Shown here: piece by piece, positions 4,121 to 62,984 of the stretch
How positions within the stretch are numbered: the first letter of the stretch is position 1
Layout: each line of letters begins with the position of its first letter
Assembly: GCF_018320785.1 (NCBI RefSeq)
Contig: NC_054886.1
Location: 10,539,207-10,603,206 of the forward strand
Source: Cheilinus undulatus
Taxonomy: Eukaryota > Chordata > Actinopteri > Labriformes > Labridae
Direction: 5' to 3'
DNA length: 64,000 bases
Program-made: the position numbers and the translations under genes
Notes under the pieces: model-generated
Database searches by the model: none
What the model saw: only the letters and a program-made list of their open reading frames with translations
Told to the model about the DNA's origin: nothing

Positions 4121-4399
4121 GATTTCACCCCAATATCTGCTGTTGATGTTGCCCTCATCATCTGTAGACAGATAAAATGTGTAGTCTGTTGTTTTAACAG
4201 ATGAAATATGTTATAAACGTATTTGGACTTTGCATTAAACACTTATGACATTATGGTCCTGTCGGTATTCTTTGACATAACTGTATTCATCTTTTGATTG
4301 AACATAAAAGCCCATTAGCTGATTTTCAGTATGACCCATGACAAGAAAACTACATGCTGGTATTTTATTCTAACCCGGGTCTCTTCTTCCTCCATGCAG

Positions 4400-4607
4400 T
4401 GAAGGATCTGATACACTGGCGAGACCCCAAGAAGTCGGGCTTGGTGTTCGGCGTCTCCATGCTGCTGCTGTTGTCTCTGGCGGCATTCAGCGTCATCAGT
4501 GTGGCCTCCTACCTGCTGCTCGCTCTGCTCTGTGTCACCATCACCTTCCGCATCTACAAGTCTGTGGTCCAGGCCGTGCAGAAGTCCAGCGAGGGACACC
4601 CCTTCAA
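4400..4607 (+). CDS. rtn3: rtn3 exon: first reticulon-domain exon
   Basis: Acceptor CAG at 4397-4399 and donor GTAAGA at 4608. The 208-bp exon encodes [13 protein letters not shown] followed by the first hydrophobic hairpin and ends in HPF plus two bases of a lysine codon. It begins with two bases of a codon, so the preceding exon must end in phase 1. Length and phase fit reticulon genes. Confidence 0.93.
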
Positions 4608-7600
4608 GTAAGACCAGTTCAGATCCATCTTTCAATACTGGTTTGACCTAGATCTGGACAAAAGCAACTGCTGACACAGAGCATGGACGACCGAACAGAT
4701 CTAAACAATCTCTTTAAAACATAAGGGATTAGACAGTGGTAGACATCGATGTTGGGACAGTCACACTATTTTTCTAAGTGACTGGTTTCCATGTTTAACC
4801 AAATCCAAATGTTTTCCATCAGCACCCTTTAAAACTGTCAAAATATTCAATTCATAAATTCTTTTCAACATCACATGCTTTCAATTGATAAAATATTTCT
4901 TATTTTAGCGAGGGATGGTATCAAAAAGTGCCAAAGCTTTTAAAAAGTACATCTAAGTCACCAGACTGATGTATAGGATTAAAAATGCATCAAAAACAGA
5001 ATCCGAAGTCTAAAGACAGGTGGTGTGCTGGTCTTTGACTGCAGTTTTTGATGATTAAACACAAGAAATAACCTAATATTTGACACCTAGGGCTTCTGTT
5101 TTTATCCTTTCAGCCATGCAGAAATTTATTCACACATATCTTCACTGCTGTAACACAGCTAGATAATCTTTAAGTTTTGTTAAATAAAGTTAAAAAATGA
5201 TAATGTACTTAATAATCTACTTTACTAGTGTGCATGATGCAGTTCTATCATGTAGGAAATTAAAACTATCAGGTCAGAGGATTAGAACATGCCTTCAAGG
5301 GTTTTCCGCGTGTTATACACTGCTCAAAAATGATGACGCCTCAAGCAACATCAGTTCAGAGCTGTCATGTACAGAGATTTCTATTCAATTTTGAGTGCTG
5401 TTACATTCCTCACATCAGTGAAAGGTAAAATGCTGACGAGGTAAAATTGAAAATGTAAAGCCATCACAAAAGAAGAGATTTTAAACCTTAAGGATACAAA
5501 GGGGGATGACTGGCTGTTCAGTGTGGCTAAAGTGGAAGAATTGTCAAACAAAGTTTGGTGCTTTTGGAAAACATTTGAAGAATGGTTATTTTAATGGCCA
5601 AATCATTTAAAAGCAGCTTTTTGAATTAAATGGCTAGGGTTGTCCCGTTCAGCATTTTTGGCCTCCAATCCCGATCTGATTTTTTAATATTAAGTATCTG
5701 CTGATACCGATACTTATAAGTACCTAGATTACAGTTTCAAATGTTACTACTAGATATCTCAAACTTATTCCATTTAACTCGGTACGGCCAATATTGTTGT
5801 AAAAAACATAAAATCACATTTCTGCTCAGAATGGTGAAATAGCTGTTTCATTTTAATTATCTGGCAAAAAATAAATTTACATATTCCCTTAACTCAGTGT
5901 TTAGTATTCAATCAGACAATCAAAATCCACTTAAAGTGGTCAGCTGAATGACCTGAGCAGTCAAAAAAGTGAACTCAAATAACCTCAGATTCACTTATAC
6001 CCCTTTCCCGCTGGCCGAAAAACCCATTTAAACCTGCTAACAGTCGGCTCCTGTCGGCAGTGGGAAAGGCTCTAATCAGCATTCAGACCCGCATTGACTG
6101 ACCCTGCAATGGACACGGGTTTTTATCGGCCCGCCTCTGATCAGCTCCAGTGGGAACGTCACACCCGGGTGAACGCGGGATGACTTTGGCGTAACGTGCC
6201 TACATTTGTATTAATACAAGTAATACATTTATATTACTTGCTTGTTATGATCTCATAGATCCTTTTTGTTGTTGTTGTTGTTGCACAGAAACATCATTCT
6301 GTCTGCTGCGCATTTAAGCCTGATGTACAGGAGGAGGCAGGAGTTTTAAGGCAGAAGTTTAGCAGCACAGCAGCACAGTTTAATGGCACATAGAAACACA
6401 AAAATGCCCATGTCATAATGAATGAGAAAAATCATTTTTCCACGGACAGATTTAGCTCATTCAGCCTGTTAAAATCTCATGGATTAGCTCATAGAGCGCT
6501 GTGCGTCCTGTCCGTGCGCAGCTGGGAAGAGAGATCCTTTTCAAACGATATAAACTATTAAGCTTTCATTTATTTATTTATTGCATTTTTTGCCTCTTGG
6601 AAATAATCACATCAATCCTCTTTTTTTTTTAACACACAAAAACTTCAGCCCGTCAGCTGCTGGAGGAGACAGACTAGGCAGAGGTTTCCAACGCTGCAGT
6701 GCAGTTTAACAGCACATATAAACACAAAAAAGCTTTTCTGGCTCACTCTTGTCATAATGAAGATATCTGCTGAAAGCTATTATTTTTTTGTGAAGAAGTC
6801 AAGCTTCTACAGCCTTGGATTTCTCATGGATTATCACATGAAGCGCAGCGCCTCCTGCGTACTAACGCAGCTGGAGAATGAGAGACTTTTCTAAAAGGTT
6901 GTTTCTATTTCCTCTATCATATGTCTGCTCCTTGGAAATGACTATATTCTTTTTTTAGTTTTCACCCTTAAATCTCATTCTGAAAACTCTGCTGTCTCCT
7001 CCATCAAATGTTAGGCTGGATGACAGCTGATGGAGGAGACAGGAGTTTGGCAGGCTGAAGTTTCTGTTTTATATCATTAAAAAGATCAATGTTTGTCTAA
7101 TATTTCCCAGAAGCAGATAGATGTGAAAAATTGAAATAGAAACATTGTTTAGAAAAGGTTCTCCTTAACTTTATTTGGCTGCGCTCATAAGTAGAAAGCA
7201 CTTCGCTTTGCTGGATAATCCATGAGAAGTTCAAGGATGTAGGAGCTGAATATGTCAGTAGAACATTAATTATTCTCAGTGGATATCTTTGTTATAGAAA
7301 GACTGAGCTAGAAAAACATTTCAGTGTCTATATGTGCAGTGAAATTACGCTGCCGTGCTGCAATGGGCGTATATAGCCTTTCAAAACGATATTTATACTT
7401 CCCTTTTCACATTTCTCTGCTTGCTGCGTACTTAAACCCGCTCTCTTTGACTTAACAGGCTGAACTGGTGGCGACTCCATCAGACGGCTTCATTCGAGCT
7501 GCAGCACTCAGTTCAGACTGCTGCGACTCATTCTAGAACCGTCTTGCGTCGCGAATCTTTGGTCTGAACTGGACTTTAACTGTGTTTCGGGGCGCTGATG

Positions 7601-10600
7601 ATGATGTCTCCAACGTGATGACATCAGCTTGATGCATCAGAGGAAAAAAAAACAGCCACGCAGCTCACGTGCTGGTGATCAGACCTGGGTCTGCTGGCAA
7701 TGGGAAAGGAGTCACTTGCCGATTGTTAGCGGGTTTACCCGCATTCAAAAAACTTGCTTTTACATGCTAGTTTTAGTGGGAAAGCGGTACTAGAGGTGAT
7801 GTAACAGAGTCCAAACTCCATTTTAAAGGGGTGTAAACAGTTTAACTTGAACAGGATCAAAAACATATGAATCATAAAGATTCAAAACAACAATCTTTAT
7901 TAAAATGTAGCAGCTTAATCTGAGATGTAAACCAAAACATTAACACTGGAATAAAACCCAAATACAAGGCACTCTTGTAATTACAGTGCAATTTCTAAAG
8001 TGCAACTGGAGCTGCTACATCACTCCCCCTCCCCTCATTTTTATTTCTCAGAGACTCAGCAGTGACATGGGGTAAACATCTGAGCTCCAAATGTCTGTAG
8101 TGAAGCTAACAGCAGTGAAGTTGCTTTTCTCTAGTATGCTACCACATACTTTGTTGTATAGCTCCGGTAAAGCAGTTTCAGTAACGTAATGCTGAGACGG
8201 CAGGGCATAGCATGGGTCCAAATTCTCCACCATGGAGAAGGGCAGGTTGTCCAAAGTGATGAATTCGACCACTTTTTCTCTTATCTTTTTTTGCCTTATC
8301 GCTCCCACGAGGGTACTTGTCTTTCCTCTTAAAGTCCAGAGTGTGTATCTTCGGTGAAGCTGCCTGTTGCTCTTGTAAAGTCACCGTATTCCGCTGCATG
8401 TTTTGATTGGAGATGATGGAACAAATTTGTAGTGTTAAACGCAGCTCTGCTGCTACCACCTCTTGAAATGGTCGTGTTACAGACGCTGCAAGTCATTGGA
8501 CTGTTTTCGCTATCAAGTTTCAAGTTTTTCCACGTCTCTGACGTTTTTAACACTTGAAAGCTAATTTTGCTACCGCTGCTTTGTTGTTACTGGCGCGTTT
8601 ATGGCCTGTTGTAAATTGTGCTCCATTTACGGCAACTGACGTAAATGATCAGCTGGGCTGATCGGATCAAGTTGCAGATCCCCGATCAATTAAAACTGCT
8701 TAGTATCAGCCCCAATCCGATCATGTGATCAGGATCGGGACATCCCTGAATGTGGCCATTAAAATAATGGCTTCTTAAGTTTTCCACTTTTTATTCTGGT
8801 GTAACCTGAGGATCTTGAGGTTTTTGAAGTCGATATTTTCCTTTTAAGTATAAACTGTTTAGTAATTGAATGTAGTACAGAGCAATCCCTCTGGTAGTAT
8901 AGATTGGACTTTGGTGCTTGAGCATGCTTTGACATGTTAAGGATTGCAGATTGCATCCTTGGAAGTTCTTTTAATGCCCAGTTCAGTCAGGACACAAGAT
9001 TTTCGTTCATGAAGTAGTTATTAATTTGCAGTTACTTCTGTTGTTTATATTTTGTGGTGTGGCTGTTCTGGGATCCCCCTGCCTTTCCTGTGCCTACAAG
9101 GAAAATCTGAGGCCGGGAGAGAAGTAGCAGAGCAGAGCAGGCATCGATGACACTGATTAAGTCAGAAAAGGAGTGAAAGAGGAGCTGGGGTGGAGGAGAT
9201 TTGCAAAAAGCAGCTTGCAGATGGAGCGGCAAAGAGTAACCAGGCTAGTCCAGTTTAAATATGGCAGCATCAGAGCTTCAGCTGGCCGTCAGCTTATAAA
9301 GGCTTACGTTAGATCAGCTGATCTCAGTTACATGGCGGAGCTTGATTCCATGGCCTGCCTAAATGAACGCTATATGCTCAATTTTTTTCCAGTGTATGGA
9401 TATTTTTGTAAGGGTTGTCAGAAGGGATGCACAATATTATCATCATGATACTGCTATCAGCAGATAATTGCTTAAAAAGAGAATTGTCTGTATTGACAAC
9501 TATCAACATCTCTGCCACTTTACTGCTCATATATCAACAGCACATCAGCTAAACAGAGTTTGGAAATCCAGCGTTGTGTGTCCTTTGTTGCTATCATAAA
9601 GGAATTTTAAACTTGCTGTAAAATATACAAGTCATTCTTCTGTGCATTCATCAAAACCTGCAGAAAAACTCCTTCACACTGTCTAAATTAAAGAAAAATC
9701 ATCTGCAACATTCCTGTACTGTAATAAAGCTGATGTTTTGGGTGATTCAGACAGCATTTTTTTCCTCTTCTCTATGTATGTAAGTTACACATTGAACCTA
9801 AACCTCTTCCAATTTGAATGAACTCATCAGACTGTAACAGCAGCCACTGATGAAAAAATTAAGTCTTTATGTAGGGAGTGTCTGTGAAACCTCTGCTGAA
9901 ACAGTAAAAGCTCTGTAGGTATGTTAGCGATGTTCCTCAATGCTTCGTGCTGCACATTTGGATGATTTACACGTGCTTCTGCAAACACTGCAGAACAAAA
10001 CATTCAGACATGAGCGGATTAATTATCCAAACCTGCTGTGTTTTATTGCATGAGGATCATACATTTTTGATCCTGATAATGGCCACGCACTGAGGCGTGT
10101 CACTGCCTTTCTTTGCCGAGGAGAGTAGGAAAATTTAAATGCACTCAAGTTTCATACCACTATGTCTTTGAATACTGTATTTATTCACTGAATGTATTTG
10201 CAAATTTCTGCAGTGATTGCAAAGAATCGCAGCACAGGCTGTTATAATTCCAGATTTTACTCCTACTGCATAAGAAATAAGCTTCTTTAGAATATGAGCA
10301 GAATATAATGTGCTGTAACTGTCTTCCCAACCCTAAGTTTAAGAAATCCTAGCGTATGACCTTGTTTACATTGGAGAAAAGATCTGAATCCAGACCTATG
10401 TTGTTGGTTGTGCACAGAAGGCTGCAGTCATTGCTGTTACCTCGACACCACAGACGTATTTGAAGATAATTCTTCATTTTCCACATAGTTTAAATAACCC
10501 AGCTGCTTGTAATGCCAGTGTTAGAGGCCAGACGTGACGTTTCCTGATATAACCTTGGTAAAACATTTTCTCTAAATAAAATCAGAGCAGAGAAATGCTT

Positions 10601-13600
10601 CAGAGTTCAACACCAGGCTGCTCCTCTTCAAACTAAACTCCTCATTAAAAAAGAAAGAAATAACAGGAGTGTCAGCTAAATGTAAATATATCTGCACAGT
10701 GGTTGAGTCAGTCCTTCCTAATGTCTCATGTTTAGAGCTTCAGTGTTTGAGGAAGAGTAGAGTATTTCCTTTATTGATTACTTTAAATAAATGTACCAGT
10801 GTTGGTGTCAGAGGAAAGATTATCAGCCTTTAGATTCTTAAATATGACAATTTTCCTTTTCTTTTTTCCTGTGAGGACAGAATCTATGATGTCATGATAA
10901 TGTTGTCGTAATTGGGCTGTAAGGAAACTGACAGACATTCAGGTTTGGGACTGGCCCTCCTCAGCTGTGATTTATTAATATCAATGCACAAGTTTTGGAT
11001 CAGTAGCGTTGATGCTAGCATCCCGACTAATGGTTACCTCATTTTGGAGCTGAAAAGTTTGTTAAACTGTTATTGGGTTCTGCTGTTAGAATTTTTTGCC
11101 AATTTATGTTGCCACTTTGAAAAGCAACTTGCCAATTTGCATCCATGTTTTACACCTTTTTATGCTCTTTTTAAACAATTTTTGACCCTGTTTTTCCCCT
11201 TTTTTTTAATCGATTCTTGACACTTTTACTTCTCTCATTTTGCCACTTTTTTGCCTATTTTTACTGCCTTTTTGCCCACCATAACCCATTTTTGCCACTT
11301 GTTTTGCCCATTTTAACCAATTTCTGCCCCTTTTTGCAAATGTATGCCACATTTTTGCCCCTTATAACCCATTTTTGCCACTTTTGCCTGTTTCTTTCCA
11401 CTTAAAATCCCTTTTGGCAACTTTATGCCCCTTTAAACCCATTTTTGTCCGTGTATTTACATCAGATGTGTGCAAGAAAGTTGAGTGACACTGTACCAAA
11501 ACAATCATTCCTAATGTGAAAACATCCCTAAACTAATTTTATTCTCCTCTTCTCCCTCCTCCTCCTCCTCCTCCTCCTCCTCTTCCTCTGCAGATCACTG
11601 ATAGAAAAGGATGTCAGCATCCCTCCTGAGACTTTCCGGAAGCACGTGGACTGCAGTCTGACCTACATCAACCGAGCCCTGAAGCAGATGAGCCGTCTCT
11701 TCCTGGTCGAGGACCTCGTCGACTCTCTGAAGGTGAGCGGCTCCAGCCTTCATCAGGGCCATCATCATCCTTACTTTATATCAGTTATTTATCCTGATAT
11801 CTGAATTCATTAATCAGATCTCTGTCCTATAAAGACTGATGTCTCTGTAACTCTGATTGGTGCAGCACAAAGGGGAAATCAGTGAAACTGTACCTCAGAT
11901 CTGATTTCTCTGATCCATAAAAAAACAAATAAATGTTTTTATTATAAATCCAGAGTAGTCTTTTAAACACCAACTAACGATCAGGTCATGAAACATCCGC
12001 CTCACTATAATCTAAAGATAAAAAGTCCAGAAAAAACTTTTCTTGATTTAAACTGTCAGTGTAAATCCAACTTTTATTTTAGACCTCAGTGGTGGCTCTA
12101 GATTTTTACCACTGCATCTCTACCCTCTGATTTTAATGCAGATATCCCCAAACATCCCATAATACTTCATTTACAGAATCAATAAAGACATTAATCAATA
12201 GAGGACAGGCCTAGCTCTTCAGATTCTGCACTGGTGTTATAAACTCTCTTCAGTTTTACATTACACATCAGAGTCAATCGTAATGAGAGCTGTGTCCTAG
12301 AAGTTCTTCCTTTTCTGCTCAGTCATCTCACAAACAAAAAACCAGGACGCTCCCTCTGCAGCCCATTTTAATACCTGAGGTCCAAAACAACATGAGATGA
12401 TGAGAAAGAACCTAAAAACACAGATTATTTAGGTTCAGAAAAACACTGAATCATTGGAAATACCAAAAGAAGTCAGATGATATGCTTAAAAAGTCTTTCA
12501 CAGACTTACTGGTTTATTCTAGATGATTAAAACTCAAATGTTCTCAACTTTTCTCCAAAGCCCACTGATGGGCAGTTGAGACAGTGTGCTCTCATTAGGC
12601 AATTACGTAACAGAAATTGCAGAAACAGATCTTTACAGTGTATAAATTGCTCAAAAATGTCACTTGTTGCCAATTCCATCCACTTCTCCAAATGTTGCCA
12701 ATTTATTTGTTCAATTTAGACTGGTTGCAGAAGTTTAACTGTAATTGGTGATCATTTAAAATGATGAATGTTGCCACCTAGCTCCTCACCAATAGGCAAA
12801 ATTGGGAAATGTGGGTGGATCCACATTTCCCAAATAGTATGGAGCAAGCTGCGAACATTGATTGTTTTAAATGATCAAAATTTGCTAACAAATCCCTACA
12901 AACATTCAAGATTGTAAAAACATGTTGCCAACTGCCTCACTCTTCCAAATATTGTCAAAGTATTTGAACAGTTTAGTCCACTTGTAAGATGAGAATGATC
13001 TTTGCTGATTAAAAAAAAGATAATTGTTGCATACGAGTTCTGATCTGATCAGGAGCAAACGAAACCTATGCTACTAAAAGTCAAACACAGCTGCTTTATG
13101 TTACCAGTGTAGATATGCAATGTAGACAGCAGAAGGTGAGCACAGGGCAAGTTGGCCACATTTATTGTTTTTTAAATTAAAAAAATTACCAGAAAAGTTC
13201 TGCAGACATTTTAAAGTGCACAAGTATGTTGCATTGCCAACTTAGTGTTATCTTTTTCTTTCTGTCAAAATCTGACTAAAGATCATGAGGCTTCTGTTTT
13301 TTTTTTTCATATCTATGATCATGAGAATAATGGACATTGTGAAACACATGGTATTCAAGAGGATAGAACATTTTTTGACAACCTCCATTTTTAATAGTTG
13401 CCCATTTTTTGCACAGTTTAGATATTGGGTTCAGTTTTTTACATTAAAAAACAAAAGACTGACGTGGGATATTTAGGACGTTATCTTAGTTGACAGGGTA
13501 TCAAAGAGATTAAAATACAGTTTGATTTTTACTAGAATCATATCGTTTATTATTCTGGTTTGTGACAACCATTTTTTTTTTTTTTTTTTTTGGTTTTTTG

Positions 13601-33855: not shown

Positions 33856-40143
<6,288 letters not shown>

Positions 40144-46229: not shown

Positions 46230-48614
46230 GTAACGGGTTTGCATGTTTTTCTTGCGCATGTTTCTTAACGTGCTGTTTGCGGGCTAATATGCGGGTTTGG
46301 CTGTTTTTGTGTAGACTCAGACAGTCCGTGAATGTGGACAGGAGGAGGAAGAGCTTGTCCATTGTGCAGCGCAGAGACACAACGCTTTCTGATCGATCTG
46401 AGCTCCATGTTCTCTCTTTTCTGTCACATTTCCGTCTTTAATGGTACTTTCTTCCTCCGTGTGCTTGTCTATCCTCGCTTCCAGTCAAACAGAGAGAATA
46501 AAGGATAAAAATGGCTCTCGACAGATATAATTTGTGATAGAAAGGGACAGCTTTAAAGGGACAGTGTCACTCCGCTTCCTTCCTGCTTCCTGGAGCTTTG
46601 TAGCCTACTTACACGACGTGTTCATACACCACACATGCTACAGAAACGTCCAAATATTCAACATTAAGGCTCCTAAAGGTTTCTTTTTTGTATATAAACC
46701 TAACAGGAAGGTGTCACACGTGGAGATAGGAGTGTAGTGACTGAGCAGATGGGCGGTTAGAGCTCGCATTGTCTTCATTTGCATTTAATCAAATGAAACA
46801 GGCGTCAATGGGCATGCAAACGTGTTTTAGTGGCCCTAATAATTATGTTTTCTCTGTGTTAGGGGAAGAAAACTTAAGGATAGCACATTTTAAACTAATG
46901 TTGAACAAATGAGCTGTCAAAGTGTGAATTTATCCTGCACATGACCGCAAATGAGATCTTAAACGCCACAGCATGGAGGAATATTAAATGTAGCCTACAT
47001 ATGTAGCGTTGAGGCATTGAAATGTCTACATTTATTGGAAAATGACTAACCTTTGCTATGTATTTTTATTTGAGTACTTAAAATGCCTCCAATAGTTGTC
47101 AAAGCTAGCTAATTTTTACCGTCATAACAGGACAGGTCTTGTCAAGACCAAGCAGCAACCTCCATGGTTGAAAAGCCAATGCAGCATGCAAAACTGCTTC
47201 TAAAGGACTCACTGATAGACTTTTTAGTAAATAAATCATGTCGGACAGTGGTTAGATTGGAATGACAATTCAAGACAACCGTTTACGAGGATGTTGTAAA
47301 GTATCGTTCACAGACAAGCAGGCTCTAAGGGCTGGCTCTTATTTATGGAAGACTGGAGCTGGCTCTTATTGAGAGTGAATTTCTCCTTTTCTTTCCTGTT
47401 TCTGCTGGTGTTTTAAAGACATAAACTGGGCAGAACCGTACCAAATGAAGAGCCATTTTGAAGCTGAAGACTGGCTGTTTTTACTCAGTATTCTATCATA
47501 TACACACATCATCTCAGTCGACTTCCAAGCCCGATAACTCTAACTCAGTTTCTTTTACAGACTTCACTTTTGCTTTAAAAGGCAGAGAAATTATTCAGCT
47601 GTTTATACTGGATTCACTTTTTTTGCCATGTGTTACAGATTTTTTATCATTAGTATTGTAGTTTGATTTTTCACTCTCAGACTTTTACAATGTGTGTGTA
47701 TGTGATAGAATGTTGGGACTTTCTCTTTTTGCAGAACTTGAGGGCATTTTAATGGCTTGTTGATTTTGGACTCAGATTTTTTCTAGTTAAGTAGATTTTC
47801 TCTGTCAAACCATTCTCCTCGGTTGATTCCATTTGTTCGTGAAACAGCCTCTCTCTGGTTTCCTTCTGTGGGGTATGAAACTTTCTCTGCATGCTTTAAA
47901 CATGTGTCTGCTCTTGGAATTTTTGTTAAACTAACCAATAAGGAACAGGTAGAGAATGGACCAATCATGTTGGATTTACCCATTTTTGCTGTGCTGTTTT
48001 CCATTTGCTTTGATTTCACTAAGAGAGTCCCAACATTCTATCATGTACTCACACATTGTTAAAGTCTGAGAGCCAAAAATCATCAAACTTAAACAGTAAT
48101 CATTAAACGTGTAAAAGATGACAAAAAAGTGAATCCAGCATAAATAGCTGAATAATTTGTCTACTTTTTAAAGCATTAGAAGTCTGTGTAAGGAACTGAG
48201 TTTGAGTTGTAGGGCTTGAAAATTGACAATGATGATGATGTGTGTATGTGATAGAATGTTGGGACTCTCCTGGAGAACAGCACAGCAACAATGGGCAGAG
48301 CTAACATGATTGGTTCATCACCTTCCTGTTTCCTATTGGTTGGTTCACAAAAACATTCGGAGAGCAGAAATATATTTGAAGCCCACAGAGAAAGTTTTGT
48401 ACACCACAAAGACACCACAGAGCAGCAGTTTCACAAGCAGGCAGAAACAACCTGTATAAGAGGATAATAGTTTCATGTTTGGCCTTCAGAAAAAGCTTTT
48501 ACTGTCAGCTTTGAACTTATTTTTTAAAGTGGATGCATTTGATATTGACTTGGCTGTTTTCAAACATTTTTATTCTTACTATGATCCAACTAAAATATAT
48601 TCTGTCTCCTACAG
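46230..48614 (+). other. Intron 1 of the spindoc-like gene (inferred)
   Basis: Contains no supported exon. Its 3' third holds a complex inverted repeat (47485-48440). Confidence 0.45.
47485..48440. repeat. Complex inverted repeat (A-gap-B-A'-B')
   Basis: 47485-47720 is the reverse complement of about 48026-48265, and 47810-48025 is the reverse complement of about 48266-48440. Anchors: GATAGAATGTTGGGACT at 47704-47720 and 48250-48266, its inverse at 48026-48042; CCAATCATGT at 47961 and its inverse at 48304-48313. Two copies of one element in opposite orientation, partly deleted, would explain it. Confidence 0.8.
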
Positions 48615-51600
48615 GACTCCTGCCCACAGATGTGATGTCTGACAGACCCTGCACCTGCTCATCAGAGCAAAAACTACAACAGCTTTGGCATCTTAAGGAA
48701 GGACAGCATGTGAGCTAAGAGACGAGAATATTCTAGACTGAGAGGGATGAGACGGGACGAGAAAACCAGAACCGTTGGATGAGAACTAATGGGCTGTCTG
48801 AGCTGGAGACAGCATGCCAACTGCAAAAGGTAAAGGTGGTTCAACGTCCCACCGCTACCGACCAGCCTCGGAGTACGACGATGCCACGCTCGCCCAGAAG
48901 AGAGAATACTGGAGGACAAAGAAGCGGGAGCAGAGGGCTCGATTATCGGAGCGGAGAAGAAGGCCAACGCAAGTTGAAAAGCTCATCCATCCAAACTGCT
49001 CCGGCTCCTTTCTCGCTATCTCTTCTTTGGATGAATCATGTGGAAACACAGCAGAGGCCGGCTCGGTTCGAGCTACCGACGGCCCAAAGGAGAAGTGGCT
49101 CCAGACAATGGATCTCAACAAGGCCTCTCCTCAGGTTCCAGTTTCATATTCAGTCTCAGTAAGAGCCGCTGGGGGCGACACCACCACAGTGAAATGCCCG
49201 CCAGCAAGGGGAGCTGGGATCCGAGTTGTTACCTCACCCACAGCCGGTGTAACCCAGCTGAACACTTCCTCAGTGCCTCCATCCAGAGTGACCAGAATCA
49301 CCAACGGCAGCTCCACAAAAACCTGTCAGCCATGTGTGTCTATGCAGGGAGCATTCGTCCCCAAAACACAAACCAAGGCACAAGTTGAGTCCCGCATTCA
49401 ACCCAAACCCTCACCGTTAAATGTGACTACAGGTCGGACTTTAGCTCCATGTCCTTTGATGACGAATACAAAACCTCTAAGAGGAACGAACAGTGCCTTG
49501 GTCACCTCACAGAGGGCTAAAGGTGTTTTCAACACCAGACAAACTTCCTCTGAGACAGAAGAGGAGAAAGCAGCCAAACGAAGAGAGAACTGGCGGATCA
49601 AGAAGAGGGAGCAGCGAGCAAAGGTGGCAGCTCGGTTGGCCAAAGCTAGAGAGAGGACACCGTGCACCGAGGTGACGTTACAGCGGCAAACAGCACAAAA
49701 AACACAACCTGTGGGCGCCACAGGCCTTCAGTATGTCCAAACCCGGACGCTCTCGAGAAGAGTTGTCCCAAATCAGAGTCATGCTCACATCAGTGCACCT
49801 TTGACATCTGTAAAAAAAGAAAATAATAAACTGCAAAGTGGTGCAGAGAGTTTAACCACAATAAACCTGCAAGGAGATCAGGTAAAAGTCCATAATCCAC
49901 CAGTGATTGAACCTGAAGGAATCCCTGCAAGAAAGTTTCCGAGTCATGTGCATCTTTTTAATGTTTCTCGAGGGATTGCTCGATGTAAAACACCCCGACA
50001 GAGATTCAATGACGCCCAAAAGACTTTCATGATTCAAAGAAACATAAGATGCAAATCCCCGATGCTTGCTTCTTTCTTGGGTACCAGAAATATCCCCAAG
50101 ATAGACCCCAATGATACACCAGAGCAGATCATCGCCAAACGGAGAGAGTACTGGCGGATTAAGAAACGTGAGCAGCGAGCAAAGCTGTCGATGGAAATGA
50201 AGGCTCGTCTGAAGGAAAAGGACTGCGTCATGAGAAGAGTCAAACGCTACCAGAAGATCCTAGAAGACATGAGACGGGCAAGAGCCCAAGCAGCAGGAGG
50301 AAATACCATGACCGACGCTTCGGAGACCATCGGAGGGTTCATTAAGGAGGACGGGACAGTGACCATCAACATTCCAACAAATCACAGCACGGCGGACGCA
50401 CGCAAACAGCAAGAGCAACTTCTAGTTACTAAACCCGTCCTGAAACCTCAGAATCAAACAGAGACCAAACGGAGAGTTATTGCACCCATCCGTGTGAATC
50501 CACCTCAAGTAAGAGTTTCTTTTCCTCTCTCTGGAGTCAACAAAACTCAAAGACTGATGTCAGTCAGACCAAGGACTGAAAGCACAAGTGTTCCAATCCA
50601 GACAGCAGGCCAGCTCAAACTCACTCATCCTCAGATTCCTAAAAATGCTGGAGGATCGAAAGCCGGGTCGAATCTTGGCGGATGTGTCATGAAAATGGCA
50701 GTGACGTCCCTCTCTGCTGCCTGTCAGGATCCGGAGCTGACAGAAGAGGAGAGGATGGCGAAGAAGAGGGAGTACTGGAGGGTAAAGAAGAGGGAGCAGC
50801 GAGCAGCTCGGGCGGCCCGACTGAAGCAAGGACTCCTACAAGCCAGGGCCTTACAGAGGAGGAAGATCCAGAAGCAGGTAAACCCAGAACCACCAAACAG
50901 AAGCCTAATGAGCAAAACAGAAGAACCTCTCCCTGGCAACAGCATCCCCAGTACACCAAATTTAAGTGGGATAAAACAAGAGGCAGCAGTTGACCTAAAT
51001 TCCCAACCAGAACAAGCCATCTGTCCAGACATCAAACCCCCATCCTCCCCATCGCCCCCTCCAGCGCCGCAGCAAGAGCCTGACCCAGCTCTGATTGCAG
51101 ACAGCCAGGCGACCACACTGCTCGCCGTAGCATCTATGAAGAAACTCCTTGAAGAGTCTCTGAGCTCAGTGACAGAGTGTAAAAGGGAACAGAGTGAAGT
51201 TAAAGTAGAGGGTGAGGATGAGGAGTCAGAGACTAAGTCCAATCTGACCTTTTTAGAGAAGGATCTAGTGGCTCCAATTTCTGCTGATCTGACCCTAGAA
51301 ATCAAAAGCTGGCAGTCCAGTACGGATGTGTTGGTCCAAGCACAATCCCCCAGTCTTAATCTGAAAAACTCACCTCAAACAAGCGAGACTTCACCACCAA
51401 ATCCTGTTCCAAATTCAACCTGTGAGAGCTCATCCCAAACCCTTTCAAACTTCATTGTAAACCCATCAATGGACGCCTCCAACATTCCTTCCTCGCCCCG
51501 CAGAACTCAAAGAATCTGCACCAAAAAGGTTGTCCATCAGAATTGTTGTTCTCCAGAGCCACCGAAGCTTCACCACCTCCCTTTAAATCAACCAGAGCAA

Positions 51601-51816
51601 CAAACATGTGCAGTACCAGAATCGAATCAAAACAACAACGTACGGACAACGCAGAGGACCCGCGATGTGGTGACAGCTTACGGCGGTCTGAGCAGCCTCC
51701 AGAGGAAGAGGGAGTACTGGAAGCTGATGAAGAGGCAGCAGAGAGCTCGGTTGAAGGCCAGGCAGAAGGACAGAGCAGGAGAGTCCAGCAGTCGGATTCC
51801 CCAGAGGAACAAAGAG
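48615..51816 (+). CDS. Spindoc-like large exon (5'UTR plus residues 1-1001)
   Basis: Acceptor CTACAG ends at 48614, donor GTAATG at 51817. The first 199 bases are untranslated; coding starts at 48814 and covers 1001 whole codons with five of the six basic motifs. A coding exon of 3 kb with no stop cannot be chance. Confidence 0.9.
48779..49162 (+). other. Overlapping upstream open frame in the spindoc-like mRNA
   Basis: An ATG at 48775-48781 region opens a 127-codon frame in a different phase that overlaps the main start at 48814 by about 350 bases. Its start context is weak (T at -3). It may only reduce initiation at the main start, if it does anything. Confidence 0.3.
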
Positions 51817-54800
51817 GTAATGAGGTGCACAGGAATAATAAGAATACTATCATTTTAATTAAAAAAGGAGGGATACTTAGTAAAAGAAAGAGAAATCTTG
51901 TGTTATCAACAGGAAATGAATCAGTTTTGTAGTGTGTAAATAACTAACAACTACTACATATTTACCACTGAGGTAGCATTGTTATGCACTGATTTATGGA
52001 GATCAGAGAAAAGACACTGCAGAGAATGTTCTGGTGCGTTAAAAATGGGAATGGTTGTATTTTTATACAACTCTGAATTTCAAAATATGAGCTTTCTTGG
52101 TTGAACGTTGAAGCAGGCATATACTATATCTCTGAATGAGGGATTAATAGTATTTCTCACTTTTCAATTGAATGGATGCAAAATAAAGCTCAATGAGAAT
52201 TGGGACCAGTGGAAGACGGAATATATAGTTGTGTTGGTGTTTTTTTGCATTAGAACTTGCTTTAACCCTTAATTGGTGTTGAAGGAATTATGAAACTCAA
52301 GGTGTTTGTGACCAAAAATGGCAGCATACATATAAAATAATAAACATAATATTCATTAATATTTTTCCAGCTTCTTCTGCATTAGTTTTTTAATCAAGAT
52401 CAGACCTGGTCATAAATATCAAATATTCAATAAATTCCAGAAATTTAACCCTGTAAATGCCAGTTTAAGTTCAAAACCCCCTGATATTTAATATGTAAAA
52501 AACACTCACAATAAAAGAAACATTTTCATGAACTACACAAATATGTAGTTACCTTGAAGGGGATTTTTGCAGCCTTTAATATGTAATAATGAATAACAAC
52601 TTAGATTTTTATACTTTTTTTTTTACATTTTGAGATTGTAATAAATTGTTACACAATAGTGTAAGTCGACAAAATAGATGCCATTCAAGCATAGCAGTAA
52701 AAATAAATGTATTTTTAAATTCACTTCTTTCACATTTAGTTTTTTTTAATCATGATCAGACCTAATCATAAATATCAGATATAAACAAATGCCCCCCAGT
52801 TGTTATTAAAAAAAATCCAACAAAAAATGAAATATTTTTTATCATGCTACATGCAAATTTAATTTCCTTGAAGGGAATTTTCACATCCTTGAATATGCTA
52901 ATAATGAGCAGCAACTTTGGTTTTATGCATTATTACTTTCTAAAAATTTAAGATTAACATATTTTTTTTACTCTTAGGGTGTTACGGCTAAAAATTGATG
53001 CCATACATGAAAAAGAACTAATGAATTACAAACTCTCCACTTTTTTGCAATTATTTTCTTAATCAAGATCAGATCTGATCATACATATCAAATACTGATT
53101 ATTTTTTTCTGGAATTTAACCCTTTAAATGTTAGTTTAGTGCAAAGAGGAAAGGGTTTTGTGACAGAAAAAACAAAAGGAGGTATTTTTATCATACTACT
53201 TGCAAATCTAATTTTCTTGAAGGGGACCTTGAATATGCTAGTAATAAGAAACAACTTTGATTTTATGCAAATAAAAAGATTTTAATAAATTGTTATAACA
53301 GTACCTACACAAAGTAAGGAAATAAGCATTCAATTTCCCCTTATGCCAAACATGGTAAATATCTGATATTTGGTGACAAACAGGGAAAACGAACTTTGAA
53401 GCAATGACTCCAGAATTAAAGCCTAATATCATAAATGCATTTTTACTGTCATGGCTGGAGGATCAAAAATTGTGGTTTTAATTGTTTTTTCAATGAGACA
53501 TTTTTGGTCACCAACAGCCTGAAGGGATACAAAAAGTCAACAGAGATTATCATTGACCTGTTACAGGTTCTGATAGAAAAATTTTAAAAATATATTTTGA
53601 AGAAGAACATACCCTCCAAAATTTCTGTTGTTGGCATTAACAAAGTCAAAACAATAAAAACAAAAGAAAAAAGAAAATGACAGAAAAAGACACAAAAAGG
53701 CCTCAACACCCTAAACTCTGAATATCTGTGCAGGTTTCACTCTCAGATTACTCTCTCACTGGTGTAAGAAAATGATTCTGCCTATGACCTTATTGATCAT
53801 GTGTTCATGTTTCCTTGGTCCAGGCTCCAGGTGCGGTCATCGTCAACTCCTTTAAAGGTCTAAATCCTCCTGGTAAACCTGCTGCCGCTTCCCTGACTGC
53901 AGTGAGCAATATCCCTGCGGTCCTGGTGGTCAGCCCTGTGGTGTGTAATTCTGAGCGCTCACCAGACACACTGCAGGTCAAACTACCCGTTAACAGAGCG
54001 TCATGTTCTGAGCAGAGACCCCTCAGACCCTCGCCGATCAGCCCGGAGGATGACAAACAAACCAGAGAGTGGATCTGCAGGAGCACAGATGTGGACTCGT
54101 CGCCCACCCTCCCCACCCTCAAGCCCCCTGAAAACCCACTCACCAGCATCAACCTGCAGCCCATCGAACCCCCTCCTCAGACACCAGTGCCGACCCTCAG
54201 CCCCATAAAAATCCCCTCGGCACACCTCCAGACCCCCCCACAGATGACAAACAAGCTGTCCCCCATCAGTACCTTGGTACCTCCGAAGCCGATCCCTGGG
54301 GAGTCTGATGAGGATTTCCTGAGGAGGAAGAGGGAGTACTGGAGGATCAAGAAGAAGGAGCAGAGGGCCAGGAAGGCCATCATAGAGAAACGAGACCCTT
54401 TCACATCCAGATCCAGATCAACCAACAGCTGGAGACCTATCCTACCTGCCCAGGAGCTGAACACACAGGTGAGACAGAAGTACTGATGATCAAAAAATCA
54501 TGTTTGTTATGGTGTCAAGCCTTTAGGATTATAAGGTTCATTTTAGAGGCTTTTAGTTCATAGATATGTTCAGTTAACAGTATTTCAAGCTGCAATTTCC
54601 AGGAATCACAGAACTGTCTGCAAGGTTGTGCCTCGAAGATTAGGTTTTCATGGAGGAGGGACTGTTGAAAATGGCCTGTGTGGTGCAAGCTAGCCTGTTC
54701 ATCCCACTCTTCCAAAAAAATCCAACATTGATCTACTATTTAGCAAAAATGTACCCAAAATCCCCAGCTTCATAAACATTCCGTCCTCTGCCTTTAAGGA

Positions 54801-57648
54801 TGACACCATCATTTAAAGCTTATAAAAACTTTCTTTCCTATGAAGATGATATGATCATTTAAAGCTTATAAAGCAGTCCACCCTTGCCTTTGAAGATCAT
54901 GTCCTCCTGTTAAGTTTATAAAACATTCCAGCCTTGCCTACAAAGATGACATCATCATTTAAAGATCATAGAACATTCCATCCTTGCTGTTGAAGATGAT
55001 GCCATCCTTAAAGCTTATTAAACATTCTGTCCGTGCTTATGTAGATGAAATCATCATTTAAAGCTCATAAAACATTCCATTCTTGCATTTAAAGATGACA
55101 TCATTCCTTAAAATTTTATAAACATTCCATTCATGCCTTTGATGATGATGTCATCCTCGAAAGCTTATAAAACATATTATTCTTGCCTTTGAAAATAACA
55201 CGATCCTTTAAAAGTGTGTAAAAGCATTCCTTCCTTGCCTGTGAAGATCATGATGTCATTCTGTAAATCTTAAAAATATTCCATCCCTGCCTGTGAAGAT
55301 GGCGCTGTCCCTTAATGCTTTCAATACACATTCCATCTTTCCCAATGAAGATGTTGTCATCATTCAAAGTTTTTTAAAACATTCAATTCTTGCCTTTGAA
55401 GCTGGCATAATCCATTAAAGCTTATAAAGCATTCCACCCTTGCCTGTGAAGATCATGTCATCCTGTTAAGCTTACAAAACATTCCATCCTAACCCTTGAA
55501 GATGACATCATACTTTACCTGCTTTTAAAATTTTTATGCTGCAGGTTACTCACATCATTCTGGAGTCAGTTCCTGTGCAAAGCAGGAAGGCCACTTTAAA
55601 CAGTTTTTCTCCTTTATTATGTGAAATTCAAGTTATAAAAGTAATGTGTTTGGAAGTATCGACATGTCAGATCAGCAACAATCCAAAATTGTGTATCTCT
55701 TATGTATTCACATTTTATCTCTGTATCACTCAAATAATCAGGATTGCCATCTTGTTACTGTTTAAAACATTCCTTCCTTGCTCAGTGACAGCCAGCACTG
55801 GAAGTCAAAACCTGAATTCATGTTTCTAAGAGGCACAAAATGTAACATTTTTTCCACATTTTTATCAAACATTTTTACTTTTGTTCTGTTATAGGACTCC
55901 AGTGAATGGGTGAACCCCGAGGAGACCCAACATCTACTGAGGTGAGGTTGTATTTTAAATTTAGTCCTTCTTTCTTCATGATTTTGGATAATGCTAAATG
56001 GAACTGTTGCTTCTCTGATACAGCACGTCTGTTGAAGCTGATGCTTCATCTTTCTCATACCCAAACTTCACAGCACCTATAGAAGGTAAAACAATAGCTT
56101 TATCACCTAAAATGTCTGATATTTTTTGGGCAAATTGAGAACATAATTCTCTCCTCAGATGAGTCTGAGTTGGCATTCATGGACTACGAGAGCAGCGTAG
56201 AGGACATCCCGGTGTCGGATACTGTATGGAGGAACAGATACCTGATGGACTATGACCCTCTCAACCAGCTGTTGGTCTGTATGGTCTGTGGGGAGCAGCA
56301 GTACTCCCACTGTGTGGAGGGGGTGAGAGCTCACATTGACGAGGCCCACCCCGACACCCTGAACCTGGACCCTGCCGAGCACCAGAGGATCCTGGAGGCG
56401 TGGGATGAACAAGTGTCCCAACGTGAACGCTTCTTCACCAGCCAGCTGCAGAGGAACAGCGAGGCCACAACAGGTACATGATGACTGCTACGAAGAGATG
56501 TCTGGGGCTGTTCCATTCTGCATTAACAATGTGTTTTACAGGGCGCCATTTTGGAGGCTGTGGTCCTCGGTGCACTGGTTGCAAAATATATACAGTATAT
56601 ATACTGAAATATTTCCTCTTTCTCCTCAGCTGTTCAATCTAAGTAAACAAAACAAAAACAAATGTGTATAACAAGTGACTTAATGTTTACTGGAAACTCA
56701 TAGATAAATTCAAGCAAAGAAGTGAACTGTTCGTTAAAAACAAAATAAAACTGAAGAATTAAAGCCACAATTGATAATAAAGGATGCATGCACCCCAGGC
56801 CCCCTAATCGGATGTCAAAAACTTAGCACATTTTACATAGTATATGAAACTGTACTGCTCCATAAATCAAGGTTGCAGTATGACTAAGGAATATGCTAAT
56901 ATATAGAAGTGATCAGGGCCGGACTGATCTTTATGGTGTAAAATTCAAAGAAGATGGGACATATCATGTTAAGAATTGTTACTGGCTTTTTACAGTAGGG
57001 GGTGTCAAAATTAACATTTAAATGTGTAGAGGGGCAGACCTTGATCATACATGTGAAATTTGAAATAAATCGGATGTTTCACATACAAGTTACTACAACT
57101 TCTTGTTAAATGGCGAGACATCAAAATGCTTGCCAAAGCCACCAAGGTGTCCTTTAATGACATCTGTCAGTGTAATGGATATATATTGCGACACTATTCC
57201 AAATCTATGCTTGAATAAATTGCCAAATTGTATCCCTTCCTGTTGCCAGTAGGAGACGCTCTGGTTTCATGACCTACGTATCCTTGTGCCTTTTAGTGCA
57301 TGAAATAGTGCGGTTACATTATGAGGGAATATGGAAGGTTTGGCATTGTATTTTTCATTTTCCATTAAGTTCCAGAAGATCTCAGGTGATGAGTAATGCA
57401 AAAGTAATGTAACTAGTAGTGTAACTAGTTACTGTCAGTAACCAAGTAATGTAACTTATTACCTTTTTTAGAAAGTAGCTAGAAATGAGTAATGGATTAA
57501 CTACCCCAACACTGGTGATAGATATCTTAACACTAAAGCTGGAAACACATCATCTTTGGTTAAACTAGTTCATGTCTGATGGTTGAGACTGTATTTGAAC
57601 CTTCTTTTCTTCTTTTTTGTTTATTTTGCAGAGACCCACAACAGCTGA
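48814..57648 (+). CDS. SPINDOC-like nuclear protein with six KREYWRxKKREQRA motifs and a CMVC zinc module
   Basis: Join of 48814-51816, 53824-54468, 55895-55941, 56024-56085, 56159-56473 and 57632-57648: 4089 bases, 1362 residues, all junctions AG/GT and in frame, TGA stop. Basic motifs lie at residues 29-42, 256-269, 443-456, 651-664, 965-978 and 1170-1183, mostly about 200 residues apart in disordered serine/proline-rich sequence. SUMO-type sites IKQE (720-723) and VKVE (796-799) are present. The C-terminal module has C1293, C1296, H1311, H1316 and continues ILEAWDEQV. This module, position after zfta and orientation suggest an orthologue or relative of SPINDOC, which binds spindlin-1 and represses chromatin reading. 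Human SPINDOC is far shorter, so the large N-terminal part may be lineage-specific or the orthology wrong. Start chosen for its A at -3. Confidence 0.85.
51817..53823 (+). other. Spindoc-like intron 2 with about 330-bp tandem repeat
   Basis: Between about 52350 and 53290 three copies share the ordered blocks AATCAAGATCAGACCT, ATAAATATCA, CCTTGAAGGGGA and ATATGCTAATAATGA. Spacings between copies are about 310-355 bases. No exon is seen. Confidence 0.7.
53824..54468 (+). CDS. Spindoc-like exon 3 (sixth basic motif)
   Basis: Acceptor GGTCCAG ends at 53823, donor GTGAGA at 54469. 215 whole codons; proline-rich sequence, then FLRRKREYWRIKKKEQRARK near the end (residues 1167-1186). Confidence 0.9.
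54469..55894 (+). other. Spindoc-like intron 3
   Basis: Dominated by the minisatellite at 54775-55515. No exon can be supported, although a short open frame exists at 55536-55829. Confidence 0.5.
54775..55515 (+). repeat. 52-bp tandem repeat, about 14 copies
   Basis: The unit reads approximately AACATTCCATCCTTGCCTTT, GAAGATGACATCATCATTTA and AAGCTTATAA. The same unit, reversed, occurs once or twice in rtn3 (17363-17465), and its GGCAAGGATGGAATGTTT core is shared with the 26.3-kb array. Confidence 0.93.
55895..55941 (+). CDS. Spindoc-like exon 4
   Basis: Acceptor TATAG ends at 55894, donor GTGAGG at 55942. Encodes DSSEWVNPEETQHLL plus two bases of a serine codon. Short but both sites and phase fit. 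Confidence 0.75.
56024..56085 (+). CDS. Spindoc-like exon 5
   Basis: Acceptor ATACAG ends at 56023, donor GTAAAA at 56086. Encodes (S)TSVEADASSFSYPNFTAPIE and the first base of an aspartate codon. Confidence 0.78.
56159..56473 (+). CDS. Spindoc-like exon 6 (CMVC zinc module)
   Basis: Acceptor CCTCAG ends at 56158, donor GTACAT at 56474; both flanking introns are phase 1. It encodes VWRNRYLMDYDPLNQLLVCM, then VCGEQQ, RAHIDEAH and ILEAWDEQV, matching the ZFTA modules position for position. Confidence 0.92.
56474..57631 (+). other. Spindoc-like last intron with transposon end
   Basis: 57390-57515 carries AGTAATGTAACTAG repeats and ends TAACTACCCCAACACTGGT. The complement of that end (CCAGTGTTGGGGTAGTTA) is a common terminal sequence of fish hAT elements. 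The rest shows no exon. Confidence 0.5.
57390..57515 (-). mobile_element. Truncated hAT-type transposon end
   Basis: Read on the minus strand it begins CCAGTGTTGGGGTAGTTA and continues with GTAAC/GTTAC repeats, as at the termini of abundant fish hAT elements. Only one end is visible. Confidence 0.6.
57632..57648 (+). CDS. Spindoc-like last coding exon
   Basis: Acceptor TTTTGCAG ends at 57631. Completes a glutamate codon and adds THNS before TGA (57646-57648). If this exon were skipped, read-through into the previous intron would add only glycine and threonine. Confidence 0.7.
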
Positions 57649-60599: not shown

Positions 60600-61925
60600 T
60601 CGGAATAAATGATCCCAGAATGAGGCCCAAAAATCTTAAGTTTTGCCATTATTGCCACCAAAAATACAAAATAGCCAACTTCCTGTTGATTTGGGGATAT
60701 AGGTCCAAAAGGCTTTTTGTAGGTCCTATCATCATATGTATCATCACCAAATTTTGTAACCCTAGGTTTAATGTCCTGCTGGGGCTACATTTTTTTCACA
60801 TTACATTGAGAGGCATGAGCACTACAAATTTCATACTTCAAGAAACTGTAATGTTGATTCGCGGATATGAGACCAAGAGACTTTTTGTAGGTCCTATCAT
60901 CACATGTTAACCAAATTTCATATCCCTAAGTTGAATGTGCTGATGAGGCTTAATTTCCTAAATATTATACTGGGCAATATTGAGCTACTTAGCTAAGGCC
61001 ACTGAAAAAACTCGTATGAAAATTCTAATTTATCCACCTGGTTTACATCTTTCAAAAGTCATGACAGTACAAGAGTTTAAAGCACCTCAAAAGACTACTT
61101 TCTGTTTCATGGTGAACATGGCATTGCCATTTTCTTTTTATATCTCATTGAGGGCACAAGAACTACAAATTTGAAATTCCAAGTAAATGTAATGTTGACT
61201 AAGGGGGTCCAAGAGAATTTTTGTGGGTCCCATCACCATACAAGTCAACCAAATTTCATAACCCTTGGATGAATGGGCTGCTGGGGCTGAACTAACTGTT
61301 ATGTTGTATGTCATAGGGGACAACACTGAGCTCTTTAGCTATGCTCACTGAATAACCCACTACTAAAGAGTTTAAATCACCTTAACCAAAATTCACAACA
61401 ATACAGGTATTTTAAGCACTTAAAAAAACTACTTCCTGTTTCACAGTAAACACTGCATTGCCATTTTCTTTTTTATACATCTCATTGAGCCACATAAGAT
61501 AAACAAACTTCATAGTTCCAAGATAATTAAATGTTGATTTGACGATATGGGTCCAAGAGACTTTGTAGCTCCTATCATCATAAGTCTACCAAATTTCATA
61601 GCCCTAGGGTGAATGGGCTGCTGGGGCTCAATTTCTTATATTTTATAGGGGCAATGCTGAGCTATTCAGCCATGGCCACTAAAAAAAACCCATATAAAAT
61701 TCTTCTTTGCAGTTTACATCTACCAAAATCAATGATAGTACAAGTGTTTGAAGCACTTCAAAAGACTACTTCCTGTTTCATGGCAAACAGCACTTTTCCA
61801 TGTTCTTTTTGTAGATCTCATTGTGCTGCACAAGCTCAACAAATTTCATACTTCCACATAAAATTACCTGCATGGGGAATTTCAAGGGGAAGGACACTGA
61901 ACCATATCACAAACATCTTCTGAGA
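60600..61925 (+). repeat. About 340-bp tandem repeat, 3.5-4 copies
   Basis: The anchor CCAAATTTCATA starts at 60911, 61249 and 61589 (338 and 340 bases apart), with an extra half-unit on the left (60747). Each unit also carries GGTCCTATCATCA, CTGCTGGGGCT and ACTTCCTGTTTCATGG. It resembles satellite-like repeats dispersed in percomorph fish. Confidence 0.9.
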
Positions 61926-62318: not shown

Positions 62319-62599
62319 TCAATGACTCCTCCTTCTCCTCGGCTCCTCCTCCTCCATGACCTCCCCTTCCTCTTCACTCCGTCTCTCCTCTCTTGAGGTC
62401 TCCTGTTCCTCTCTCTGCTTCTTTTTGGGCCCCTTGTCTTCTGCAGCCTGTAGCTCTCTGGGTCCAGCCTCGAGGCGGAACAGCGTAGGGACCTGACCCA
62501 GGATGGGGTTAGTCTGCTGGAGTCCAGAGATCCACTGGTTCAGGGTGGACTGGTCGCCCTGACCACTCATACACATGGCGTAGACTGGACCCTCGTCCA
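62319..62599 (-). CDS. Last coding exon of an unrecognised gene
   Basis: Read on the minus strand, an acceptor TTTTTATAG ends at 62600 and the exon opens with two bases of a codon. It encodes [20 protein letters not shown] and [20 protein letters not shown], then a highly charged tail ([14 protein letters not shown], then [15 protein letters not shown]) and a TGA stop. The first 50 residues look like a folded, conserved domain end; the tail is disordered and acidic/basic. GC content and codon use differ from the flanking repeats, which supports a real exon. I do not recognise the family. Upstream exons must lie to the right of 62600, possibly beyond the window. Confidence 0.72.
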
Positions 62600-62984
62600 C
62601 TATAAAAATAAAACACAACAATTATAAAAAGTTTAACACTCCTGAGTCTGGGGACTTTTTTTTGGGGACCCTTTTAACTTTTGATACATGGAAATGCTAA
62701 AAATTGCATGCTGTACCGTACCAAACTGAACCAGACCACTCAGTGGAAATGACTTAACTATTTTTAACCTCAGAACAACTCCCTCAGAGCAGACCTACTG
62801 CATGAATCATGAGACATGCTGCCCAGGTCAATGGGTCAAGTTTCTTAAACTGAGAAGTCTTTTATAAAGTAAACCGCAATTTTCTTTAAATTAATGTTTT
62901 TCGACATAATGAGGGAGAAAAGCTGTTCAAAAGTGGAGCTGTATTACACAGTAATACGGTGCAGGGATGCTAACACCAGTAGCA
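62600..62984. other. Intron of the minus-strand gene, nothing seen
   Basis: No further exon of the terminal gene could be recognised here. Confidence 0.35.

Follow-up and report, generated by a model that had tools for sequence, protein, structure and literature searches.

What kind of protein carries six widely spaced copies of a short basic motif at this locus of Cheilinus undulatus, to which family does it belong, and what might the copies do? We examined the gene within the window, that is, the whole 64 kb stretch of DNA analysed, starting from a reading made from the sequence alone, which had described a 1362-residue SPINDOC-like protein.

Gene structure and identity

The gene lies on the forward strand (48814-57648) and comprises six coding exons with GT-AG splicing that yield exactly 1362 residues. 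Exon 1 (48814..51816; residues 1-1001) is an open frame preceded by an in-frame stop at 48799 and closed by a GT donor, and contains motif copies 1-5. Exon 2 (53824..54468; residues 1002-1216), delimited by an AG acceptor and a GT donor in phase 0, contains copy 6. Exons 3 (55895..55941) and 4 (56024..56085) are supported by agreement of the spliced product with P0001, exon 5 (56159..56473), which holds a Spin-doc finger, by splicing and a Pfam match, and exon 6 (57632..57648), with the stop codon, by splicing. The spliced product is 100% identical over its full length to the predicted protein si:dkey-28a3.2 of C. undulatus (P0001); the gene is teleost si:dkey-28a3.2. The length given by the sequence-only reading is confirmed, whereas the span it proposed, 48814..54468, has the correct start and first two exons but ends at exon 2. 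Neither the gene name nor the motif words had a match in the literature searched.

Six copies of an undescribed module

The six 14-residue copies, all on the forward strand, stand exactly where they had been placed, with spacings of 187-314 residues. Spliced translation and copy comparison gave copy 1 (KREYWRTKKREQRA, residue 29; 48898..48939), copy 2 (RRENWRIKKREQRA, residue 256; 49579..49620), in which N replaces Y, copy 3 (RREYWRIKKREQRA, residue 443; 50140..50181), copy 4 (KREYWRVKKREQRA, residue 651; 50764..50805) and copy 6 (KREYWRIKKKEQRA, residue 1170; 54328..54369), while copy 5 (KREYWKLMKRQQRA, residue 965; 51706..51747) ranks first for conservation among all 1349 14-residue windows of the protein. 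Scanning the whole 64 kb in six frames with short motif words recovered these six copies only; two extra single-word matches (8588 and 56688) fall in frames interrupted by stops. The pattern R-E-x-W-x3-K-x2-Q-R-A matches the protein six times and 20000 shuffles of it not once. Every core carries a net charge of +5, within a protein of +63 and pI 9.8, and the unit exceeds 14 residues: acidic positions lead into it from -8 to -4, and conservation extends to about +21.

Searches for a known family agreed with the earlier statement that no named domain fits. None of 15 motif windows matched Pfam at E 10, a setting in which HMMER filters drop most weak matches, and no PDB chain matched the motif profile (15 windows) at E 10. 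NCBIfam, a prokaryote library, returned nothing for P0001 and P0143, and sequence searches of the PDB with the C-terminal part, the copy-3 helix, the whole protein, two linker islands and the A1 profile gave chance-level matches or none. The predicted basic helix present in six copies is a previously undescribed module.

Conservation and selection

Across 93 teleost proteins, mean conservation is 0.963 in motif columns and 0.706 elsewhere. When the 1349 windows are ranked by conservation, copies 2-6 all come among the first 42, and copy 1 comes 116th. Among the window's own copies (15 pairs), synonymous divergence is 0.38-1.02 per site against 0.06-0.22 for non-synonymous sites. Both comparisons uphold the proposal that the motif is under selection.

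The near-invariance claimed for its residues holds for most of them. In profile matches across homologues (1013, less P0170 and one that scored below 8 bits or was cut), W5, K9, Q12, R13 and A14 are kept in at least 1009 of 1011 copies and E3, beside basic residues, is also nearly invariant, whereas Y4 is kept in only 834, mainly because copy 2 varies there: its commonest residue at that position reaches 0.52 in the 93 teleost proteins. The outcome that the sequence-only reading had set against itself, loss of the Y-W-R and E-Q-R-A positions in other fish, was not found, the exceptions being Y, mostly in copy 2, and copy 6 in the carp Labeo, which has lost E and Y.

Individual copies also retain their identity. 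When 19 proteins were compared (P0120 included, P0172 left out for having five of six strict matches), the nearest neighbour was the same copy in another protein for 114/114 windows with flanks and for 108/114 with the 14-residue core alone. Copy identity thus persists throughout the sampled spiny-rayed fishes, and most copies retain theirs in a carp as well. The linkers do differ between copies, as had been reported, but they contain islands, for example residues 496-520, 756-788 and 1098-1114, that species share. Island 496-520 (GNTMTDASETIGGFIKEDGTVTINI; 50299..50373, +) has a peak 15-residue mean conservation of 0.95 and no helix predicted by AlphaFold; island 756-788 (51079..51177, +) peaks at 0.99 and has a predicted helix at 758-783 (TTLLAVASMKKLLEES).

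Predicted helices in a disordered chain

AlphaFold places the five copies modelled here in separate helices of 27-59 residues within a mostly disordered chain, all encoded on the forward strand: residues 23-49 around copy 1 (48880..48960), 249-281 around copy 2 (49558..49656), 436-494 around copy 3, the longest (50119..50295), 644-687 around copy 4 (50743..50874) and 961-988 around copy 5 (51694..51777). By 10-residue blocks, pLDDT is 78-93 at the copies and below 50 in most linker blocks, and three copies of an Albula protein likewise fall in separate helices. Together with the +5 cores, these models bear out, as a prediction, the proposed basic helices on a flexible chain. Conservation showed no significant bias towards one side of the helix (p 0.14 and 0.40). 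For copy 3, a bZIP-like basic region plus coiled coil was considered by inspection only.

Relationship to SPINDOC and ZFTA

Pfam recognizes a single known domain in the protein, a Spin-doc zinc finger near the C terminus (residues 1275-1336; 56224..56409, +; PF18658, E 3.1e-24, 84.9 bits against a cut-off of 27.3), followed by 26 residues. Elsewhere in the window, two forward-strand open frames (4342-4608 and 11532-11801, together 4342..11801; PF02453, E 1.2e-15 and 1.3e-8) are parts of a reticulon gene, which we take to be RTN3; four reverse-strand open frames (33859..38525), each with a Spin-doc finger in Pfam, are ZFTA (C11orf95)-like; and a further reverse-strand frame (62322..62621) encodes an ECSIT C-terminal domain (PF14784, E 3.7e-16). 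The order is reticulon (+), ZFTA-like (-), motif gene (+), strands that presumably agree with those of human RTN3, C11orf95 and SPINDOC. One source gives the human order as RTN3-C11orf95-SPINDOC-MARK2-RCOR2 and also refers to zebrafish chromosome 7 (PMC8319724). The motif gene occupies the place of SPINDOC in this order, although the fourth neighbour is ECSIT and not MARK2. Since the order of reticulon, ZFTA-like gene and motif gene matches the human one as described there, the motif gene probably corresponds by position to mammalian SPINDOC, extended by a long stretch with six helices. The earlier label, SPINDOC-like, is sustained by both finger and gene order; the gene-order link is new.

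With mammalian SPINDOC (C11orf84) the fish protein shares a single Spin-doc finger and the place after reticulon and ZFTA, but the architecture differs. In human SPINDOC, the finger precedes the Spindlin-binding segment, whereas in the fish protein it sits at the C-terminal end, with only 26 residues after it and about 1200 residues with six helices ahead of it; human SPINDOC is not known to have such a region ahead of its finger. The human segment is assigned to residues 251-293 or 256-281 (PMC8568969, PMC10400593), the latter for binding to Tudor-3 of Spindlin. No PDB chain of that peptide was matched by P0001 or by island 496-520, a 26-residue peptide making for a weak search. In mouse, haploid spermatids require Spindoc for their development (PMC8442334).

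A ZFTA-like gene adjoins the motif gene and shares Spin-doc fingers with it, but has four against one, with a finger-to-finger identity of 34-36%. The motif gene was accordingly rejected as a ZFTA orthologue: it has one finger, and the four-finger gene is its neighbour. Its finger helix has a net charge of -2, against +5, +3, +1 and -1 in the four ZFTA-like fingers. Compared with a provisional sequence of the human SPINDOC finger, it is identical at 25/64 positions and the ZFTA-like fingers at 20/64, 22/64, 27/64 and 21/66, which makes it no closer than one of the latter.

Possible mechanism and alternatives

We give about even weight to the reading that the protein is a SPINDOC counterpart whose six helices would bind chromatin multivalently while its finger recruits a partner. 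Each helix, with +5 over 14 residues, would fold on or bind a negatively charged surface, whether DNA, RNA or nucleosome; the chain could therefore grip chromatin avidly, through as many as six contacts, and might bridge nucleosomes. The finger, its helix being acidic, would recruit a protein partner instead of reading DNA as the first finger of ZFTA does (PMC12431856), a role that may be comparable, by analogy, to that of SPINDOC residues 115-165, which bind PARP1 (PMC8568969).

The conserved W, Q, E and A of each core exceed electrostatic needs and fit a protein-docking helix equally well. The helices might therefore be docking sites for one protein partner, such as an acidic-faced chromatin protein, Spindlin, PARP1 or a histone chaperone, on a six-site scaffold that needs no nucleic acid contact. 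We consider this the less probable reading, yet a substantial one: W5, Q12, A14 and E3 are nearly invariant beside basic residues, each copy has flanks of its own that are retained from protein to protein, as expected of partner-tuned sites, and SPINDOC itself is described as an adaptor docking to Spindlin1 and PARP1 (PMC8568969). One may argue, on the other hand, that uniform +5 cores and a pI of 9.8 are more easily explained by a nucleic-acid or nucleosome surface. That surface could be RNA, which arginine-rich helices bind, and basic helices are predicted here within a disordered chain; the accompanying Spin-doc finger, of a family known for chromatin work (PMC12431856, PMC8568969), speaks against RNA, a reading we hold to be unlikely although the present observations fit RNA and DNA alike.

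Clusters of K and R could also mean that the copies are only nuclear localization signals or carrier-binding sites, and in FMBP-1 and ZNF821 nuclear localization depends partly on the STPR (PMC4821344); one or two signals would suffice for this, however, and six kept copies with invariant W and Q demand more, so we regard this as improbable. That the motif is itself an STPR repeat appears scarcely credible. The earlier reading had noted a loose likeness, and the motif is a basic repeat in a probably nuclear protein; STPR segments also turn helix-rich upon DNA binding (PMC4821344), a likeness of mode only. STPR, however, consists of tandem 23-residue repeats without long linkers and with a Glu4-Arg9 bridge (PMC4821344), whereas the copies here are single helices 187-314 residues apart. 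On this comparison, of architecture and not of sequences, kinship was rejected.

Should the chromatin-binding reading be correct, the presence of six chromatin-type helices in a fish counterpart would show an ancestral or teleost role more directly bound to chromatin, and a family now filed as uncharacterized would gain a name and a testable module, its variants in copy number and spacing offering a natural series for avidity on nucleosome arrays. More tentatively, and with clearly less confidence, teleost SPINDOC might be a chromatin-bridging chain, roughly 800-1600 residues long, whose helical modules, as many as six, would read nucleosome or DNA through W-K-Q-R, chromatin binding having moved from finger to helix array, and the mammalian protein being a short Spindlin/PARP1 adaptor.

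Taxonomic range

Homologues were drawn from three sets: 120 of 296 matches (scoring limited to 7984 candidates of about 749-2383 residues), 50 listed from a second set (scoring limited to 7996 candidates, each about 251-798 residues long) and 83 listed from a third (594 candidates of about 308-980 residues). Many of those listed have no species name. Among the matches listed, the named carriers are, as we judge from their names, teleosts, one of them mislabelled; since only part of the matches is listed and many are unnamed, there may be carriers among gars, sturgeons, sharks and tetrapods. The mislabelled entry, P0120, filed under 'Lampetra planeri', was rejected as evidence that the family is ancient. 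Its identity to tuna is 60%, and to the wrasse exon 56%, where three carps reach only 32-37%; being closer to the wrasse than those carps are, it is a mislabelled or contaminating fish, and we therefore claim no lamprey or tetrapod range. The Holothuria leucospilota protein HOLleu_01941 (P0170) contains one KEYWREKKREQRARMS stretch that scores 33 bits against the motif profile, with a database E-value of 1.2; it has neither a Spin-doc finger nor any other Pfam domain scoring above the cut-off, and the likeness may be due to chance. Among the matches listed, homologues are filed as uncharacterized or as mucin-5AC, proteoglycan 4 or serine/arginine repetitive matrix protein.

The gene and its motif copies

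The six-exon gene si:dkey-28a3.2 (48814-57648, + strand) of the wrasse Cheilinus undulatus encodes a protein that is already in the database. The sequence-only reading was exact both in its gene model (six exons, GT-AG borders, 1362-residue product) and in placing six copies of a 14-residue basic motif at residues 29, 256, 443, 651, 965 and 1170 of the spliced product, and its observation is sound. Copies 1-5 fall in coding exon 1 and copy 6 in coding exon 2, and a six-frame scan with the motif words returned no seventh copy in the window. A frame of 127 residues (48779-49162, +) starts at an ATG 35 bases 5' of the main one; it overlaps the main start and copy 1 in a different reading frame and could lower main-frame translation.

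That reading had found no named domain for the motif; likewise, sequence and profile searches gave no match in Pfam or PDB, and neither six words drawn from the motif nor the gene name occurred in the 5.39 million papers searched. Overall, the motif is a real, selected helical module, apparently undescribed so far, in an uncharacterised, known-family gene at the SPINDOC locus. The range of carriers rests on the matches listed, among which the named carriers are teleosts except for a mislabelled Lampetra entry, ferret-titled records and a sea cucumber protein (E 1.2); carriers in other vertebrates are possible. The Lampetra entry was rejected as a lamprey carrier, its record being mislabelled, and the ferret title stands, among the matches listed, on two tilapia records.

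Selection and age of the array

Column conservation, DNA differences between copies and residue counts across 1011 copies agree that, as proposed earlier and judged by sequence comparison, the motif is under selection. Across 93 aligned proteins (the 89 of 120 listed matches with at least 1300 residues, plus P0172, P0192, P0173 and P0178), mean conservation was 0.963 in motif columns versus 0.706 in all others; copies 1-6 ranked 116, 42, 20, 30, 1 and 11 among 1349 windows, copy 5 thus being the protein's most conserved 14-residue stretch. Between the window's own copies (15 pairs), synonymous differences of 0.38-1.02 and non-synonymous differences of 0.06-0.22 were obtained, values that are rough because each copy spans 42 bases. 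In 219 of the 220 retrieved proteins (sea cucumber P0170 excluded), W5 and K9 were kept in 1011/1011 copies, Q12 and R13 in 1010, A14 in 1009, E3 in 957, R6 in 837, Y4 in 834 and E11 in 805, counts that lean towards pattern-favoured residues because the windows used to train the profile had been selected with a pattern that required W5 and Q12 and permitted few letters at most other places; A14 was free in that pattern.

Copy identity was assessed in 20 hand-picked proteins, 19 of which, including the mislabelled P0120, had six strict matches. In these 19, the nearest neighbour in other proteins was the same copy for all 114 windows with flanks and for 108/114 with the core alone. The carp Labeo rohita has six copies: copies 1-4 are closest to the same-rank Cheilinus copy, copy 5 ties between copies 5 and 6 (0.52), and copy 6, which has lost E and Y, ties between copies 2 and 6 (0.55). 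The gene model of the elopomorph Albula, possibly incomplete, holds three. Because of this matching across fishes and the Labeo rohita and Albula copies, the array most likely predates the carp/spiny-rayed split, a dating that stops short of placing six copies at the teleost root. In the Pimephales protein P0171, three near-identical tandem units surround copy 3, reflecting either recent duplication or an assembly fault.

Locus identity

The sole known domain of the protein is a Spin-doc finger (residues 1275-1336). Upstream, each of four minus-strand open frames holds a single Spin-doc finger, in which the likeness to ZFTA (C11orf95) consists, and farther upstream lie two plus-strand reticulon frames; we take the strands of human RTN3, C11orf95 and SPINDOC to agree with this arrangement. 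One report places the block RTN3-C11orf95-SPINDOC-MARK2-RCOR2 at human 11q13.1 and its zebrafish counterpart on chromosome 7 (PMC8319724). MARK2 follows SPINDOC in human, whereas ECSIT follows si:dkey-28a3.2 in the wrasse. The agreement in gene order and strands makes si:dkey-28a3.2 the probable positional counterpart of SPINDOC, the finger not being decisive. The Austrofundulus protein P0220, a predicted terminal uridylyltransferase 4, carries copy 6 and a Spin-doc finger at its C-terminus and is probably a gene-model fusion.

Predicted structure and proposed mechanism

AlphaFold, given exon 1 (copies 1-5) with 40 sequences, returned a model of low overall confidence, as its mean pLDDT was 50.5 (703/1001 residues <50). 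Around copies 1-5 it predicted the helices 23-49, 249-281, 436-494, 644-687 and 961-988; in the blocks at the copies, pLDDT was 78-93. Two further helices were predicted at 394-411 and 758-783. Outside the copies, the best-conserved parts of the 93-protein alignment include TTLLAVASMKKLLEES, the stretch around helix 758-783, and the island 496-520. The Albula model (30 sequences, mean pLDDT 55.1) likewise sets its three copies in predicted helices (23-69, 209-250 and 460-498).

Each motif helix has a net charge of +5. Widely spaced on a predicted disordered chain and with W, K, Q, R and A in common, such helices would fit multivalent binding to a negative surface that recurs; the likeliest such surface is chromatin, because the finger's relatives ZFTA and SPINDOC work on chromatin. 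ZFTA's first finger is reported to bind DNA (PMC12431856), and the histone reader Spindlin1 and PARP1 are SPINDOC partners (PMC8568969, PMC7878818, PMC10400593). Finger-helix charge is +5, +3, +1 and -1 in the window's ZFTA-like fingers versus -2 in the si:dkey-28a3.2 protein, as also in Albula and Pimephales; for this reason the finger is proposed to serve protein contact, while the helices would bind chromatin. The main rival is that the helices themselves are protein-docking sites. Multivalent chromatin binding by the predicted helices is a reasoned guess.

Repeats and possible mobile-element traces

Just 5' of the first coding exon, nested inverted repeats (47490-48408; arms of 24-83 nt, 70-96% complementary) are perhaps a palindromic mobile-element remnant. 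Minisatellites lie at 26267-26707 (period 46) and, in the intron after copy 6, at 54769-55511 (period 50); by eye, their units appear to be mutual reverse complements. On the minus strand, frame 8332-8586 encodes a BED zinc finger (PF02892, E 8.9e-7) and the neighbouring frame, 8051-8380, lacks a Pfam match; the two (8051-8586) are, at a guess, a transposon remnant. Long tandem arrays occupy 31703-33020, 44311-44644 and 44902-45368 (periods of about 20) and 60824-61864 (period of about 337).
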